DNA of 64,000 nucleotides from Pseudomonadota bacterium (GTDB taxonomy: Bacteria > Pseudomonadota > Alphaproteobacteria > Acetobacterales > Acetobacteraceae): contig JAKBAD010000001.1 in the NCBI GenBank assembly GCA_021809435.1, positions 496,001 to 560,000 of the forward strand. Direction: 5' to 3'. The notes beneath the pieces were generated by a model, which saw nothing but the letters and a program-made list of their open reading frames with translations, was not told the origin of the DNA and searched no databases. Shown here one piece after another: positions 8,834 to 14,954 of the stretch. Numbering within the stretch: the first letter of the stretch is position 1; every line of letters starts with the position of its first letter. Made by a program: the position numbers and the translations under genes.

Positions 8834-10234
8834 TCAGTTCACCAGTTCCATGCGCGCGCGCAGCTCGGGCACGGCCGATTTCACATTCACCAAAATAACC
8901 CCCAGCGGCGTGCGCGCGCAGATCAACAAAATGATCGAGTGCCCATTGGCACTGATCCGTGTGCTGACAATCTGCACACCCTGCGACTCCATGGTCAGAA
9001 CATCAAGCTCGGTCTGCCCCGTGGCGGCATTCACCAGCGCCTCGCCCACCACCAGCAGTGACGAGCTAACCGCCGCCATCTTGCCGATCTGTTCATTGCC
9101 CACCCCGGTTGAGCAGACATTAAACCCATCGGGCGTACACAGCACAGCGTAGCGCAATTTGGGAATTCGCCCGACCATAACCGAAAAAGCCGGGCGCAAG
9201 GCCGAGCCCAATGCGGTCAGATACGCGCTCGGATCGCGCTCCTCCATATCCAGAGGCGCGGTCGCGGCACTCTCCGTCCCATTGCTGGCGGATATATCCG
9301 CGCCCTCCCCAACCGGCTGCGGCTCACTGACCGCCTCCGGTTCGCCAAGCCCCTTGTCTTCTGCGGGCGGCGCGGCGCTCATCTCCGGCGCAAGGGCGGG
9401 CAAAGGCGGCATCACCAACGGCTCTGATGCGACCTCAGCCGCCAGCCAGCCCGGTACCCTTTCCACCACCGCCGCACCAACAGGCGAAACATCCGCCCCC
9501 CGCGCTTCCAAGGTCTGTGGCTCCTCACCCCCCATCTCCGGCACCACCGGCTCAACCTCCGGCCAAGCAGGCGCGATGTGCGCCACCTCACCAGCCTGGC
9601 TCAGCATTTCCGCCACCACCGGCCCAGAAGCCCCCGCCTCAACAGCGCCCTCCGGCACCACCACCGGCTCAGCCCCCGGCCAAGCCGGCAATACTGGCGG
9701 CTCCTCACCACCCTGCCTCGGCATTTCCGGCACCACCGGCGCAAAAGCCCCCGCCTCAACAGCGCCCTCCGGCACCACCACCGGCTCAGCCCCCGGCCAA
9801 GCCGGCAATACTTGCGGCTCCTCACCACCCTGCCTCGGCATTTCCGGCACCACCGGCGCAAAAGCCCCCGCCTCAACAGCACCCTCAGACACCACCACCG
9901 GCTCAGCCCCCGGCCAAGCCGGCACCACCCGCGTCACCTCTCCGGCCTCCGCCCGCGCATCCGGCACAATTGGCACAAACGCTGTCGCCTCCATGGCACT
10001 CTCAGGCCCAGGCCATGCCGGCTCCGGGGGGAGAGCCGCCTCGGGCGGAAATTGTCTCACGGCCGGCCAGATATGGCCGGTGACCTCATCATCAACAGCC
10101 TCGATCGGCGGCCAGACATCCAAAACCCGGCGCGGCAAGGGCGCGGGCGCGGCGGGGCCGGCTTGCGGCATCTCCGCCTCGGGAGCCGGCGCTGTTTCAT
10201 GGGGCTTGTCATTCTGGTCCATCATTCCGCTCAT
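8834..10234 (-). CDS. Roadblock/LC7-domain protein with long Pro/Glu/Ala tandem-repeat linker
   Basis: 466 residues. Residues 334-466 read as a Roadblock/LC7 domain (TPDGFNVCS, IGKMAAVSSSLL, then a late TPLGVILVN strand), a fold that binds or regulates small GTPases. Residues about 72-240 hold a PAWPG-based repeat: PAWPG recurs at residues 72, 105, 144, 183 and 222, and the central units are 39 residues long and nearly identical. The rest is acidic, Pro-rich and probably disordered. ATG 10234 overlaps the GTPase stop as ATGA, so both proteins are likely made together. No signal peptide or membrane span is seen. A partner or regulator of the adjacent GTPase is inferred from context. Confidence 0.8.
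   Translation of the reverse strand: MSGMMDQNDKPHETAPAPEAEMPQAGPAAPAPLPRRVLDVWPPIEAVDDEVTGHIWPAVRQFPPEAALPPEPAWPGPESAMEATAFVPIVPDARAEAGEVTRVVPAWPGAEPVVVSEGAVEAGAFAPVVPEMPRQGGEEPQVLPAWPGAEPVVVPEGAVEAGAFAPVVPEMPRQGGEEPPVLPAWPGAEPVVVPEGAVEAGASGPVVAEMLSQAGEVAHIAPAWPEVEPVVPEMGGEEPQTLEARGADVSPVGAAVVERVPGWLAAEVASEPLVMPPLPALAPEMSAAPPAEDKGLGEPEAVSEPQPVGEGADISASNGTESAATAPLDMEERDPSAYLTALGSALRPAFSVMVGRIPKLRYAVLCTPDGFNVCSTGVGNEQIGKMAAVSSSLLVVGEALVNAATGQTELDVLTMESQGVQIVSTRISANGHSIILLICARTPLGVILVNVKSAVPELRARMELVN
9572..9922 (-). repeat. Three in-frame 117-bp tandem repeats
   Basis: The same sequence recurs with an exact 117-bp spacing (for example a CCCCCGCCTC word on the plus strand at 9631, 9748 and 9865), giving three units of 39 codons. 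Degenerate half-units flank the array, so repeat-like sequence spans about 9515-10021. The unit is a multiple of three, so copy-number change would lengthen or shorten the linker without breaking the frame. Confidence 0.9.
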
Positions 10235-10806
10235 CCTGCCAAAAACCGGGCCGAAGGCGCCGCCAGCACCATGGCCACGGTTCGCATCACATCCGCGGGA
10301 GCCCGCGGGTCCGCGGCCAGCACCGCCGCGTGCGGATGAAACCGCCGCGCCAGCGCCGCGAAACCTTGCAGCCCCTCCTCGCGCCGCGCCTCCCCCAGCC
10401 GCGAAACCGCCACCGCCAGGCGCGTGGGCGTCTGCCGGCGCGAGAGCGCCCGCAGCCACATTTCACAAGTCATTCCGCCATCGGCCCGGTCGCCAAACGC
10501 CCACAGCACAATGCCGGCGCTGCCAGGGGTCAGCAAATCCCACATTAAATCAAAGCGTTCCTGCCCTGGTAGCCCATACAGCACCACCTGCCTGCCATCG
10601 GGCAGGCTACACTCACCATAATCGAAACCCGCCGTGGTCGTGGTCTTGCCAAGCGCGCGCATCATCTGGGTTACCTCCAGGCTGCGCACATCCATTTCCA
10701 CCTTCTCAGGGCCAGAAACAGCGCGCATCGCCGTGGTCTTGCCCACGCCCATCGGCCCGGCGAATATCACCTGCGGGGCGACCTTCTGGCCAACAATAAT
10801 GTCCAA
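10231..10806 (-). CDS. Small GTPase, CvnD/COG2229-like
   Basis: 191 residues. The P-loop is GPMGVGKTT (residues 17-25), followed by a TTTTAGFDYGE switch-like segment and LYGLPGQERFDLMWD (about 77-90). That last segment closely resembles conservon GTPases (CvnD) and COG2229 rather than MglA. The DxxG aspartate is replaced (GLPG), and no clear NKxD base-recognition motif is present (AVSRLGEA stands there), so nucleotide specificity is uncertain. The start is TTG at 10806, supported by GGAGG 6 nt upstream; the next ATG lies inside the P-loop. The stop overlaps the downstream roadblock gene (ATGA). A signalling or polarity switch is inferred. Confidence 0.8.
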   Translation of the reverse strand: MDIIVGQKVAPQVIFAGPMGVGKTTAMRAVSGPEKVEMDVRSLEVTQMMRALGKTTTTAGFDYGECSLPDGRQVVLYGLPGQERFDLMWDLLTPGSAGIVLWAFGDRADGGMTCEMWLRALSRRQTPTRLAVAVSRLGEARREEGLQGFAALARRFHPHAAVLAADPRAPADVMRTVAMVLAAPSARFLAG

Positions 10807-10939
10807 CCCGCGCCTCCGTCTGGCCTTCGCTTCTCTAAGTCTTTAGCTTCTTTACGTCTTTCGGTGCCGCTCGCCGGCAGGGCTTGTACCACCACCCCGG
10901 CACCGGCACGCGTGGGCCGCCCTGTCACTCACCTGGTCA

Positions 10940-10971
10940 CTGGCGCCCCGCACGGCTCATCGGGGCGCCAG
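10940..10971 (-). terminator. GC-rich hairpin downstream of the short roadblock-like gene
   Basis: Perfect 11-bp arms CTGGCGCCCCG (10940-10950) and CGGGGCGCCAG (10961-10971) flank a 10-nt loop, 6 bp past the 10978 stop. There is no T-tract on the minus strand, so it may act as an RNA-stabilising or Rho-assisted end rather than a standard intrinsic terminator. It separates the short roadblock-like gene from the GTPase gene. Confidence 0.55.
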
Positions 10972-10977
10972 CGCCTG

Positions 10978-11355
10978 TCAGGCCCTGGCCGCCTGTACCG
11001 AGCTCAACGCCTTGGGCAGCGCCACCGAAAGCAGCACGCCCAGATTAACCTTGGAACTATCCATCAGCACGCCCTGCAGCAAATCCGTGCCGTGCATGAC
11101 GATCAACACGATCTTGCCCGTCTGCAAATTCATGAAAAAATACCGGTCAAGCCCAGGAAAACCAGAGCTTTCAAGAGTATCTCCCAAAGAGTTAACAATC
11201 TCCGTGAACAGCGCCACCGCCGCCGGCTGGGTGTTGAAGCCCGCAAGAGACAGGCCGGTATTGCGGTCCCAAATATCAGCCGCCAGCAGCCCATCCTTGA
11301 GCGCGGCCTTCAAATCGGTAATGGCAGCTTCCAGTTTTTGGACGTCAATTTGCAT
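10978..11355 (-). CDS. Short Roadblock/LC7-like protein
   Basis: 125 residues, starting at ATG 11355 (AAGGA about 12 nt upstream). After an N-terminal helix (KLEAAITDLKAALKDG) the pattern is strand-helix-strand-strand-helix, with DRNTGLSLAGF, a helix containing FTEIVNSLG, GFPGLDRYFFMNL and KVNLGVLLSVALPKAL. This resembles stand-alone roadblock/LC7 proteins that accompany small GTPases. It lies 171 bp upstream of the GTPase gene on the same strand, so the three genes form a roadblock-GTPase-roadblock set. The family call is by fold pattern only; the closest named family could not be checked. Confidence 0.6.
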   Translation of the reverse strand: MQIDVQKLEAAITDLKAALKDGLLAADIWDRNTGLSLAGFNTQPAAVALFTEIVNSLGDTLESSGFPGLDRYFFMNLQTGKIVLIVMHGTDLLQGVLMDSSKVNLGVLLSVALPKALSSVQAARA

Positions 11356-11728: not shown

Positions 11729-12301
11729 ATGACCCTGCCGTTCAAGCTCATCATCTGCGGGCTAGACGAGTTGCCCGCCCATGCCGGCGCGCCGGTCACC
11801 CATGTGCTCTCGATTCTCGATCCCACCCACCCCGCGCCCGAGGCCTTCGGCAGCTTTGGCGAGCATGACAAGCTCGAGCTCCGCTTCGACGATGTGATCG
11901 ACGATCAGCCCGGCAAAAAATCACCACAACCATCAGATGTTGAAGCATTACTAAGCTTCGGCCACGGGTTCGATCCCAGCCGCGGCGCGCAATTTCTGGT
12001 GCATTGCCATGCTGGCGTCTCGCGCTCCACCGCCAGTGCCGCGCTGCTCATCGCCCAGGCCCAGCCGAACCTGCCCGCCGCCCGTATTTTCGACCAACTC
12101 GCCACGCTCCGCCCGCAACTCTGGCCCAATCTGCGCCTCATCGAGCTGGGCGATGCCCGCCTCCACCGCCAAGGCGAACTGATAGACGCCGTGGCCCGCC
12201 TTTATGCTCGCCAGCTGGCGCGCACCCCGGCCCTGCGCAAATATTTCAGGGGGCTCGGCCGCGAGCGTGAACTCAACGCCGCCCAGCCCTTCATGGCCTG
12301 A
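11729..12301 (+). CDS. Predicted protein tyrosine phosphatase (COG5350-like)
   Basis: 190 residues with the P-loop HCHAGVSRST (residues 92-101), the HCx5R signature of cysteine-based phosphatases; C93 is the nucleophile and R99 binds phosphate. An upstream Asp-rich segment (RFDDVIDD, about 51-58) may supply the general acid. Cytosolic, with no signal peptide. The size and layout fit the bacterial predicted tyrosine phosphatase group COG5350. The gene converges on the histidine kinase gene with only 2 bp between their ends. Substrate unknown. Confidence 0.85.
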   Translation: MTLPFKLIICGLDELPAHAGAPVTHVLSILDPTHPAPEAFGSFGEHDKLELRFDDVIDDQPGKKSPQPSDVEALLSFGHGFDPSRGAQFLVHCHAGVSRSTASAALLIAQAQPNLPAARIFDQLATLRPQLWPNLRLIELGDARLHRQGELIDAVARLYARQLARTPALRKYFRGLGRERELNAAQPFMA

Positions 12302-12303
12302 AA

Positions 12304-13668
12304 CTAACCCGTCCTGGCATCTGGCGTGGGCAGCCACACGCTAAACGCGGTACCCTTGCCCAGCTCGCTCTCAATCACCAACCGCCCGCGATGGCGGTTC
12401 ACCACATGCTTGACAATCGCCAACCCGAGCCCCGTGCCGCCCACCGCCCGCGAGCGCCCCTTGTCGACGCGGTAAAACCGCTCGGTCAAACGCGGAATGT
12501 GCTCGCGCGCAATGCCCGCGCCATCATCGGCCACCGTCACCACCACCCCGCCAGCCGGAAACCGCGTATCCGGCGCGGCCGAGGCGCTCAGCCTGATCTC
12601 CCCGCCCCGCTGCCCATATTTCAGCGCGTTATCGAGCAGGTTGGTAAATAGCTGGGCCAACTGGTCGGCATCGGCGGGCAAGCGCGGCAAATCATCGGGC
12701 ACGTCCACCAGCAGTTTGGTGTCCTGGGCTTTCACCATCGGCTCCATGGCGGCCACAATCCGGCTCAGCACGGGCGGCAGCAGCAGCAGCTCCTTGGGCG
12801 GCGAATGTTCTGAAATCTCAATCCTGGAGAGCGAGAGCAAATCCCCGATCACCCTTTGCATACGCGCGGCCTGCTCGGCCATAATGCCCAGAAAATTCTG
12901 TTGCGCCTCGCGGTCATCGGCGGCGGGCCCGCGCAAGGTCTCGATAAACCCAATCAGCGAGGCCAGCGGCGTGCGCAGCTCATGGCTTGAATTCGCCACG
13001 AAATCCGCGCGCATCTTCTCCAGCGCCCGCTCGCGCGTGCGGTCATTGACCAGCATATAAAGCAGCTCGCCCGCGGGGATGATCGTAACCTCCAAATCCC
13101 GCGCCACCGGCGCCGCCATACCCACCTCCCGGCGCACCGGCTGACCGCGGCTCTGTGCCTCGGCCTCGGCCTCACGCACATCGGGGTGGCGCAGCAAGGC
13201 CGCGGTCTCGCCCGCAAAGGCCGTGCTGGCGCTCTCATTGCGCCACATCACCCGCCCCATCCCATCCAGCTTGAACAGCGGGTCGGGCAGCCGCTCCACC
13301 AGCGCCCGGTCCTCAATGGCCGTGGCCTGCGAGCGCGCGCGCACCAGCCGCTCGGCATGAATAAGCCTCACCGCCTCCTGCCCCAGCGCGCGCATGCCGG
13401 GCATCAGTAGCCCGGCCTCCTCAGGCAGCGTGTCCGGCTCTGTGCGCAGCGCGCGCATCAGCCCGGTCATGGCGGCCAAATCATGCCCCAGCGCCAAGCC
13501 AATCACCCCGGCGCCCACGCCACACACCGCCCAGCCCACAACCGCCAGCCAGGCTTTCAGCCCCCCTGCCAGCGCGAGCGCCAAAAACACCGCGCTTGGC
13601 ACCGCCATCAGCAGCAGAATCGTGGCGACAGCCGTCGTCCAGGCTTCCCCGTTTTGCCGCTCGGCCAT
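12304..13668 (-). CDS. PhoR-like sensor histidine kinase
   Basis: 454 residues: two N-terminal membrane spans with little periplasmic sequence (about residues 10-65), a PAS-like segment (about 110-200), then HisKA and HATPase domains. The H-box reads SSHELRTPLASLIGFIETL (phospho-His near residue 228), close to PhoR. N-box NALKYG, G1 DDGAGI and G2 GGTGLGLAIV are intact, so kinase activity is expected. ATG 13668 shares a base with the stop of the upstream lipoprotein gene (TGATG). No response regulator or pst gene is in the window, so a phosphate role is suggested only by similarity. Confidence 0.85.
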   Translation of the reverse strand: MAERQNGEAWTTAVATILLLMAVPSAVFLALALAGGLKAWLAVVGWAVCGVGAGVIGLALGHDLAAMTGLMRALRTEPDTLPEEAGLLMPGMRALGQEAVRLIHAERLVRARSQATAIEDRALVERLPDPLFKLDGMGRVMWRNESASTAFAGETAALLRHPDVREAEAEAQSRGQPVRREVGMAAPVARDLEVTIIPAGELLYMLVNDRTRERALEKMRADFVANSSHELRTPLASLIGFIETLRGPAADDREAQQNFLGIMAEQAARMQRVIGDLLSLSRIEISEHSPPKELLLLPPVLSRIVAAMEPMVKAQDTKLLVDVPDDLPRLPADADQLAQLFTNLLDNALKYGQRGGEIRLSASAAPDTRFPAGGVVVTVADDGAGIAREHIPRLTERFYRVDKGRSRAVGGTGLGLAIVKHVVNRHRGRLVIESELGKGTAFSVWLPTPDARTG

Positions 13669-14954
13669 CAATTCACCGGCTGGCTCAGGCTGGAGGGCGC
13701 GGGCGCGTTCATCACCGGCTGACCCGGCGCCACGGCAAACACCGCCAAACCGCGGCTCACCGTGCCATCGGGGTTGAGCACCACCAGCCCGTCAGCCCCG
13801 TCAAACCCGGCCGGATTGGTGAGCACGGTGCTGGTATAGCCCCCCCTGCCCGCCGCCACCCGCGCGATCGCGGCGGCATCGAACGCCACATCGGCAATGG
13901 CCGGGGGCGGCGCGCCATACACGCTCTGATATTTCGCATCGAACGCCTGGGCGCTGGCCGGGTCCGGCGCGGCGTAGAGCGCACCGATAAACACCGTCTG
14001 GCTGGCCATTTGCGGCGCCAGCCCGCTCCACAGCGTTGGGCCCAGAAACTGCACCTGCGGGGGGTTCACATCGTAATAGGGCAGAAAATTCGCCATTTCC
14101 GCCAGGGTGGCGGCATCGGTCGCGCCAATGAACAAGGCGTTGAAGGACGGCGGCGGCACCGGCTGGTGGCTGAGCGCCGCGGCCTTGGCGCGCCCGGCGG
14201 CGGTGCCTTCCTCCCGCGCGGCCTTGATCTCGTCCATCAGCCCCTGGCCACGCTCGGCAAAGTCCGAAATCTGCTCGACCGCGCTGTTCACCCCGGCAAA
14301 GCCCGGCTGATAATAAATAATCTGCGGCGCCGGCTCGCCTTGCTTGGCGGCGGCGGCAGCCAGGGCGCTGGCCAAATGGTGGCCAAAATCATCATCGCTG
14401 AGCAGCGCGGCGAGCTGGGTGTGCCCGCCGGCGGCCGCGGCCTGCACCACCCGCGCCACCTGCTGGGTGGGGGTAATGCCCAGCGGCCACACACCGGGCG
14501 CGGCCACGGTGCCATCATTGGTGAAGGGCAGCATGTTCACACCCGCCTGCTTGGCCACGGGCGCCACGGCCTGCGTCTCGGCCGAGGTCAACGGCCCGAT
14601 GATCACGCCATCCCCCGCCGCGATCCCCGCCTGCGCCGCCGCCACCGCCCCCCCGGCGGTGCCGCCGGTATCGCGCACATCCAGCCTCACCCCGCCCGAG
14701 GCCGGAAACGCCAGCCGGGCGGCATTTGCCAGCGCCTGGCCAATCCCGGCATAAGGCCCGCTCAAGGGTGCCAGCAGCAACACATTGCCGCCTGTGTGCC
14801 CATAACTTCCCGCGCCGGCCTGCGCGCCGGCTGGCAGCAAAGCTGCCGGCCCCGAGGCAACCGGCATTTGCGGGGCTTGACCGGCGCAGGCGCTCAGCGC
14901 CAGCGTGGCCGACAGGAGCAGCCATGACGAACGAGACCAGCGCGAACCAACCAC
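13668..14954 (-). CDS. LppC-like lipoprotein, periplasmic-binding fold (penicillin-binding protein activator type)
   Basis: About 428 residues. A short signal peptide ends at the lipobox LSAC, so it is a lipoprotein. The body has a type I periplasmic-binding fold: LLLAPLSGPYAGIGQAL at the start, VIIGPLTSAETQAVAPVAK next and a DDDFGHHLA segment later. Family members related to LpoA stimulate peptidoglycan synthases from the outer membrane. GTG 14954 with GGGAGG about 5 nt upstream is the best start; ATG 14990 is possible. Either start makes the 5' end overlap rsmI head-to-head on the other strand. It is translationally coupled to the downstream kinase. Confidence 0.8.
   Translation of the reverse strand: MVGSRWSRSSWLLLSATLALSACAGQAPQMPVASGPAALLPAGAQAGAGSYGHTGGNVLLLAPLSGPYAGIGQALANAARLAFPASGGVRLDVRDTGGTAGGAVAAAQAGIAAGDGVIIGPLTSAETQAVAPVAKQAGVNMLPFTNDGTVAAPGVWPLGITPTQQVARVVQAAAAGGHTQLAALLSDDDFGHHLASALAAAAAKQGEPAPQIIYYQPGFAGVNSAVEQISDFAERGQGLMDEIKAAREEGTAAGRAKAAALSHQPVPPPSFNALFIGATDAATLAEMANFLPYYDVNPPQVQFLGPTLWSGLAPQMASQTVFIGALYAAPDPASAQAFDAKYQSVYGAPPPAIADVAFDAAAIARVAAGRGGYTSTVLTNPAGFDGADGLVVLNPDGTVSRGLAVFAVAPGQPVMNAPAPSSLSQPVN

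Follow-up and report, generated by a model that had tools for sequence, protein, structure and literature searches.

The window analysed here, a 64,000-nucleotide stretch of an Acetobacteraceae genome (GenBank assembly GCA_021809435.1, contig JAKBAD010000001.1, positions 496,001 to 560,000 of the forward strand), carries at positions 8834–11355 a three-gene cassette that is probably a reduced and diverged MglA/MglB-type switch related to Group 3 of the MglA GTPases. All three genes lie on the minus strand and are read in the order short gene (10978–11355, 125 residues), gene of an MglA-like small GTPase (10231–10806, 191 residues from a TTG start) and long gene (8834–10234, 466 residues). The short gene and the GTPase gene are spaced by 171 nucleotides, and the GTPase and long genes overlap at ATGA (10231–10234), which holds the TGA stop of the former and the ATG start of the latter. 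An earlier note on this DNA, made from the letters alone, had correctly given these coordinates, the strand, the gene order and the coupling of the last two genes. Its description of a compact GTPase/roadblock unit, lacking a kinase or DUF742 partner, was also supported by our results. The note had regarded the unit as not described in this lineage, and our literature search found no paper on roadblock proteins with a GTPase in Acetobacteraceae or on roadblock proteins with MglA in Alphaproteobacteria.

The complete cassette was present, with the gene order kept, in two congeners, G162 and G068, whose GTPases were 82% and 57% identical to the window copy, respectively. The ATGA overlap between the GTPase and long genes recurred in G162 and was replaced by a short gap in G068. 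The ratios of nonsynonymous to synonymous substitution rates (dN/dS) in comparison to G162 were 0.04 for the short gene, 0.21 for the GTPase and 0.17 for the roadblock domain of the long protein; the corresponding values for G068 (0.17, 0.44 and 0.25) are rough due to large synonymous distances. As judged from these alignments, the cassette genes are under purifying selection, and conservation in two congeners together with dN/dS of 0.04–0.44 rules out a chance set of open reading frames (ORFs). The promoter and terminator scan gave one promoter-like site on the opposite strand (shuffle mean 0.3) and three terminator-like sites (shuffle mean 3.5). A G+C-rich hairpin was located directly 3' of the short gene (approximately 10938–10974), with a z-score of −1.12, which is not significant in the window; a hairpin of different sequence occupied the same place in G162 (z = −2.47), and the value for G068 was −0.65. 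Such a hairpin would perhaps lower read-through into the GTPase gene.

In a tree of 40 GTPases, the window copy grouped with that of G162 (support 0.998), then with G068 (0.946) and then with G517 (0.999), a genome from another class. The same clade holds the Comamonas sequence, while the four actinobacterial copies, Deinococcus and Thermus stand apart. The P-loop was intact (G1, GPMGVGKT), and a threonine replaced the arginine finger in G2 (KTTTT), as expected of the MglA proteins of Groups 2–5. The G5 motif, DPR, agreed with the D-x-R (DAR) of Groups 2–3 MglA. The G3 motif was GLPGQ, not the GTPGQ of Groups 2–5, and GLPGQ was also found in G162, G068, G517, the locus L053 and Amycolatopsis. 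Both segments quoted in the earlier note, TTTTAGFDYGE and LYGLPGQERF, were indeed present in this protein.

The second element of the putative switch is the C-terminal domain of the long protein (8837–9250, minus strand). Its last approximately 138 residues matched the Pfam family Robl_LC7 only weakly (E = 0.0043, 17.2 bits, with a cut-off of 23), and the match obtained in the genome search (6.2e-4) was also below the cut-off. A three-member profile of the domain retrieved the Robl_LC7 structure 3kye from the PDB (E = 0.0025), followed by cvnB5 (E = 0.048). The profile-profile comparison with six GTPase-linked roadblocks, among which G517 was not included, gave E = 2.9e-12; this is the value we rely on, as a larger comparison (1.9e-22) was inflated by the G517 roadblock being present on both sides. 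The fold model of the long protein was poor, with a predicted local distance difference test (pLDDT) score of 44, and its best Foldseek matches were largely roadblock-fold chains, none of them significant (best E = 0.04). The Asp-Gly pair reported for MglB of Groups 2–5 (PMC4316618) is present in the domain (CTPDGFNVCS). On the basis of these sequence comparisons, we assign the C-terminus of the long protein to the MglB-type roadblocks. The roadblock assignments of the earlier note thus stood for this protein and found weak support for the short one, for which Pfam, NCBIfam and PDB were silent.

According to PMC4316618, Group 3 systems of beta- and gamma-proteobacteria consist of X, MglA and one or two MglB proteins, and X is receiver-like plus a winged helix by Phyre2; Group 2 corresponds to the conservon. 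The cassette resembles Group 3 in its single MglA-type GTPase with a coupled MglB roadblock, supplied here by the long-protein domain, in the threonine at the arginine-finger position, the D-x-R G5, the deviant G4 and the Asp-Gly MglB. It differs in that X was not detected, in GLPGQ instead of GTPGQ, in a short protein that cannot be recognised as MglB, and in the long MglB tail of two species. A set of one MglA and one or two MglB roadblocks has already been described, and the features that differ are the missing detectable X, the unrecognised short family and the tail. Of the 12 loci that were compared, five had a further roadblock type, MglB2, after the GTPase and MglB1, an arrangement shared with the 1:2 systems within Group 3. 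In G517, a pair of short-type genes is followed directly by the genes for X, the GTPase and an MglB-type protein; the short-type genes matched the short family with E = 5.1e-44 and 6.6e-41, and the MglB-type gene matched the long-protein domain with E = 8.3e-31 (small local set). This gene row ties the short family to an Mgl module outside the genus. The X profile was built from eight X proteins (8 of the 12 loci fetched), to which G517 and G531 contributed and G075 and G860 did not. It gave no match in any of four genus genomes (own, G162, G068 and G166) versus all four comparison genomes (G075, G517, G531 and G860). In the alignment of the eight X proteins (28% mean column identity), L-x-x-W-P formed the sole invariant columns, and this motif was also present in the X of G075; it is a candidate contact site.

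The short protein belongs to a small family, of which 10 members were aligned. The predicted order of its secondary structure elements (helix, strand or strands, helix, three strands, helix) was that of roadblock proteins, although taken from a model with a pLDDT of 46. When the short family was compared with 28 roadblocks by profile-profile alignment, the match extended over 99 columns with E = 8.3e-4 and a probability of 24%, against 0.24 for the reversed control; with trimmed columns, the values were E = 4.3e-3 and 8%. None of 200 column shuffles reached the score of the trimmed comparison (21.1, best shuffle 18.4), and two unrelated alignments scored 15.5 and 14.8. Both the weak profile evidence and the predicted order of the elements speak for a roadblock that is very diverged, which we regard as the probable identity of the short protein. 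MglC is less than 9% identical to MglB and has the same fold (PMC7949163), so a roadblock may be invisible in sequence.

Several results weigh against this interpretation of the cassette. The short protein had no meaningful match in Pfam, NCBIfam or PDB sequences, and Robl_LC7 matched none of the 10 family members. Its fold model was poor, as the above score indicates, and Foldseek returned nothing significant, with MglB (6hjm) at rank 43 (E = 2.3). Earlier profile comparisons with small alignments were not significant. The comparison with the MglB2 family (13 members) gave E = 0.1, or 0.037 over 19 columns after trimming; descent of the short protein from MglB2 was also considered, since a D-x-x-K-x-N-L patch looks alike, but was rejected for lack of a significant profile match. 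On the side of the GTPase, grouping with the MglA of beta- and gamma-proteobacteria depends on Comamonas as the named member of the clade, at nodes of modest support (0.863 and 0.535), in a midpoint-rooted tree from which assigned members of Groups 1 and 4 are absent. Finally, the G4 motif of the window GTPase (AVSRLGE) is degenerate and lacks the Asn/Thr, the Lys and the Asp.

The G4 state could mean that base recognition, and perhaps hydrolysis, has been lost and that the protein is a pseudo-GTPase acting as a constitutive scaffold instead of a switch. The motif reads SRLG in the window, SRLA in G162, SRLP in G068 and TRMT in G517, whereas the Asp is kept in 26 of the 40 aligned GTPases, and the dN/dS of the GTPase (0.21 and 0.44) exceeds that of the short protein (0.04 and 0.17). 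However, ten of the 14 GTPases without the Asp fall outside the clade formed by these four, including L054, L058, L062–L064, L067, Comamonas and three actinobacterial copies. The state is hence not special, and our initial candidate mark of this clade, the G4 loss, was weakened. The P-loop, KTTTT and PGQ are intact and the gene is under purifying selection; moreover, deviating G4 motifs are reported for the MglA proteins of Groups 2 and 3, and CvnD9 nonetheless hydrolyses GTP (PMC4316618). We consider a pseudo-GTPase quite unlikely. It is very improbable that the cassette is a degenerate actinobacterial conservon from which the kinase and DUF742 genes were lost. The conservon-like label of the earlier note applies in one loose respect only, the membership of the GTPase and CvnD in one family. 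The GTPase is 32–38% identical to actinobacterial plasmid copies, and the CvnA–D loci of actinobacterial plasmids likewise combine such a GTPase with a roadblock. The second PDB match of the long domain was cvnB5, and the Rhodococcus locus itself comprises a kinase, a roadblock and a GTPase, with no DUF742 gene listed. The cassette differs from the conservon in having no kinase or DUF742 gene and a GTPase of another clade, apart from the Streptomyces, Amycolatopsis and Rhodococcus copies; its G4 is not the NxF of the CvnD clade (NxFD), and its gene order is unlike that of the plasmid CvnA–D examples. No CvnA-type kinase was found among the ORFs of the cassette. The nearest kinase gene (HisKA/HATPase, 12304–13671, same strand, 0.95 kb upstream) is matched in 36 of the 38 congeners, most of which lack the cassette. 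There was no CvnC (DUF742) gene adjoining the GTPase, which is bordered by the 171-nucleotide gap and the overlapping long gene, and none of the three proteins matched DUF742. Conservon membership was thus rejected on gene content and on the GTPase tree with its four actinobacterial reference copies.

It is unlikely, in our view, that the short protein is a non-roadblock that merely lies upstream of a system consisting of the GTPase and the long protein. Such a division into two unrelated units would fit the missing family match, the gap between the two genes and the distribution of the paralogues. The own genome contains four short-family copies, three of which are orphans without a GTPase of the cassette kind beside them, and the congener G166 has a short-family paralogue and no match to the GTPase. 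Against it stand the gene order shared by three congeners, the position of the short family near the GTPase in G517 and its weak match to roadblock profiles. The family is also narrowly distributed: in the class sample (n = 337), the own genome had it and the remaining 336 gave no match, and in the phylum sample (n = 398) it was limited to the own genome and G517, apart from a single weak match interrupted by three stops. It was absent from the viral contigs and plasmids searched. One of the paralogues carries, in both species, a C-terminal extension of approximately 65 residues past the shared domain (L025, 7211–7777; L028, 8334–8900). A stop suspected inside one short paralogue (C3) proved to be the terminator of that paralogue.

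Upstream of its roadblock domain, the long protein has an N-terminal tail (approximately residues 1–333) rich in P, A, E, V and G. It contains the repetitive linker announced by the earlier note, a tandem array at 9542–9924 (minus strand) of 3.3 copies of a 117-bp unit (39 residues) with 91% matches. The tail of G162 is of similar length (336 residues) and its repeats are unlike those of the window (34 residues, 102 bp × 4.2), while the roadblock protein of G068 (131 residues) has no tail or linker. Seven tryptophan-proline (WP) pairs occur in each of the two tails. In shuffles of the same residues, 1.4 pairs were expected in the window (0 of 20,000 shuffles reached seven) and 2.0 in G162 (P approximately 0.001), with P values that are overstated since the repeat copies are treated as independent. 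The two tails share a conserved block, RR(V/T)LD(V/I)WPPIEA...TGHIWPAVRQFPPEAA (10034–10132, minus strand), and the first approximately 80 tail codons have a dN/dS of 0.22. We know of no comparable tail in the MglA-MglB-MglC system of Myxococcus xanthus. The earlier note had proposed that the linker sets the reach between partners. A spacer is possible; the linker-free protein of G068 and, from its sequence, the WP-containing block point to binding motifs rather than to a spacer. The first WP of the tail reads L-x-x-W-P, as in X, a single match that is possibly due to chance. An elaborate scenario can be drawn, in which X was lost, its L-x-x-W-P was taken over by the MglB tail, and a new roadblock family replaced MglB2 and spread as orphan competitors, but we find it improbable.

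Within the genus sample of 38 genomes, the GTPase was found in three, the short family in four and both together in three. The family sample gave a GTPase match in three of 150 genomes (own, G068 and G075), and the phylum sample in 57 of 398, the own genome included. The GTPase profile scored 319.8 bits in the own genome and 25.3 bits or less, mostly over the P-loop region, in 11 other genomes of the class sample, where at most nine candidates per genome were scored and absences are accordingly incomplete. No GTPase match was found in viral contigs, nor was the GTPase of G162 found in phages. The cassette is flanked by the above kinase gene and by a glutamate-synthase-like gene, named by eye from its sequence without a family search, which had matches in 35 of the 38 genus genomes; in G068, 168 bp separate the end of the kinase match from that of the short gene. 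Both flanks lay on one contig in 17 genus genomes: three had the cassette between them, ten were empty, as judged from flank matches no more than approximately 150 bp apart (three of these gaps were fetched), and four had a gap of 0.7–3.4 kb holding, by eye, a phosphatase-like gene with or without other genes and no cassette. This pattern of occupancy indicates that the cassette is accessory and located at a single site in all three carriers. The window has a phosphatase-like gene (11729–12301, weak DSPc match) at the kinase/glutamate-synthase site together with the cassette. Genes similar to it by eye were seen in the four cassette-free congeners (L159–L162), marking the site as variable.

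Roadblock genes were also encountered next to protoglobin genes. On contig C2 of the own genome (approximately 42.9–45.6 kb; L004, 4886–7589), two proteins terminate in a protoglobin domain (E = 5.7e-22 and 1.9e-16, respectively). In the second, this domain is preceded by a weak match to Robl_LC7 (0.0027), and the first joined the roadblock set through iterated search only. They are followed by a lone roadblock protein (Robl_LC7, 2.8e-13). The Thermus brockianus plasmid pTB1 (L033, 3345–8314) carries an annotated run of DUF4388, ATP/GTP-binding protein, protoglobin, hypothetical protein, roadblock, protoglobin and EAL genes. The occurrence of roadblock, globins and a GTPase together in pTB1 suggests a gas- or redox-sensing link, and our literature search found no paper joining roadblock and protoglobin.

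As a diverged Mgl-type switch, the cassette would work by analogy with the known systems. The small GTPase would bind nucleotide, cycle and shift its switch regions, and its active form would bind an effector. The long protein, through its roadblock domain, would serve as an MglB-like dimeric partner driving hydrolysis or exchange, and the short protein would most likely be a second roadblock without GTPase-activating protein (GAP) activity, as MglC is to MglB, bridging or tuning the complex. The orphan short paralogues may act as competitors in binding a shared partner, and the tail with its WP motifs, in the own species and G162, may bind a partner or a cellular place. Two roadblock-fold proteins around one GTPase are known from the MglA-MglB-MglC system of M. 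xanthus (PMC7949163), an arrangement the cassette would share if the probable fold of the short protein holds; PMC4316618 places that GTPase, unlike ours, in Group 1 with an arginine finger. The Snodgrassella mgl locus, whose mglA is of Group 3, combines a single mglA with a coupled pair of mglB genes and an orphan mglB elsewhere (PMC11112851), which resembles the single GTPase, the roadblock and probable roadblock genes and the orphan copies elsewhere in the genome seen here. The Snodgrassella orphan is an MglB with Robl_LC7, whereas the orphans here belong to an unrecognised family; its authors inferred an effect of orphan mglB mutation on pilus-dependent motility. Any cellular output of the present cassette, such as surface behaviour, pili or polarity, can be proposed by analogy only.

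The distribution would make this GTPase an outlier, as the other genomes of the class sample gave weak profile matches at most. The two species whose tails have unlike repeats and a like length and WP count offer a natural experiment on which features a disordered tail has to retain. If the short family is a roadblock, it adds to that fold a branch to which current profiles are blind, and, if the cassette is a working system, its three genes without X would show the smallest MglA/MglB set.

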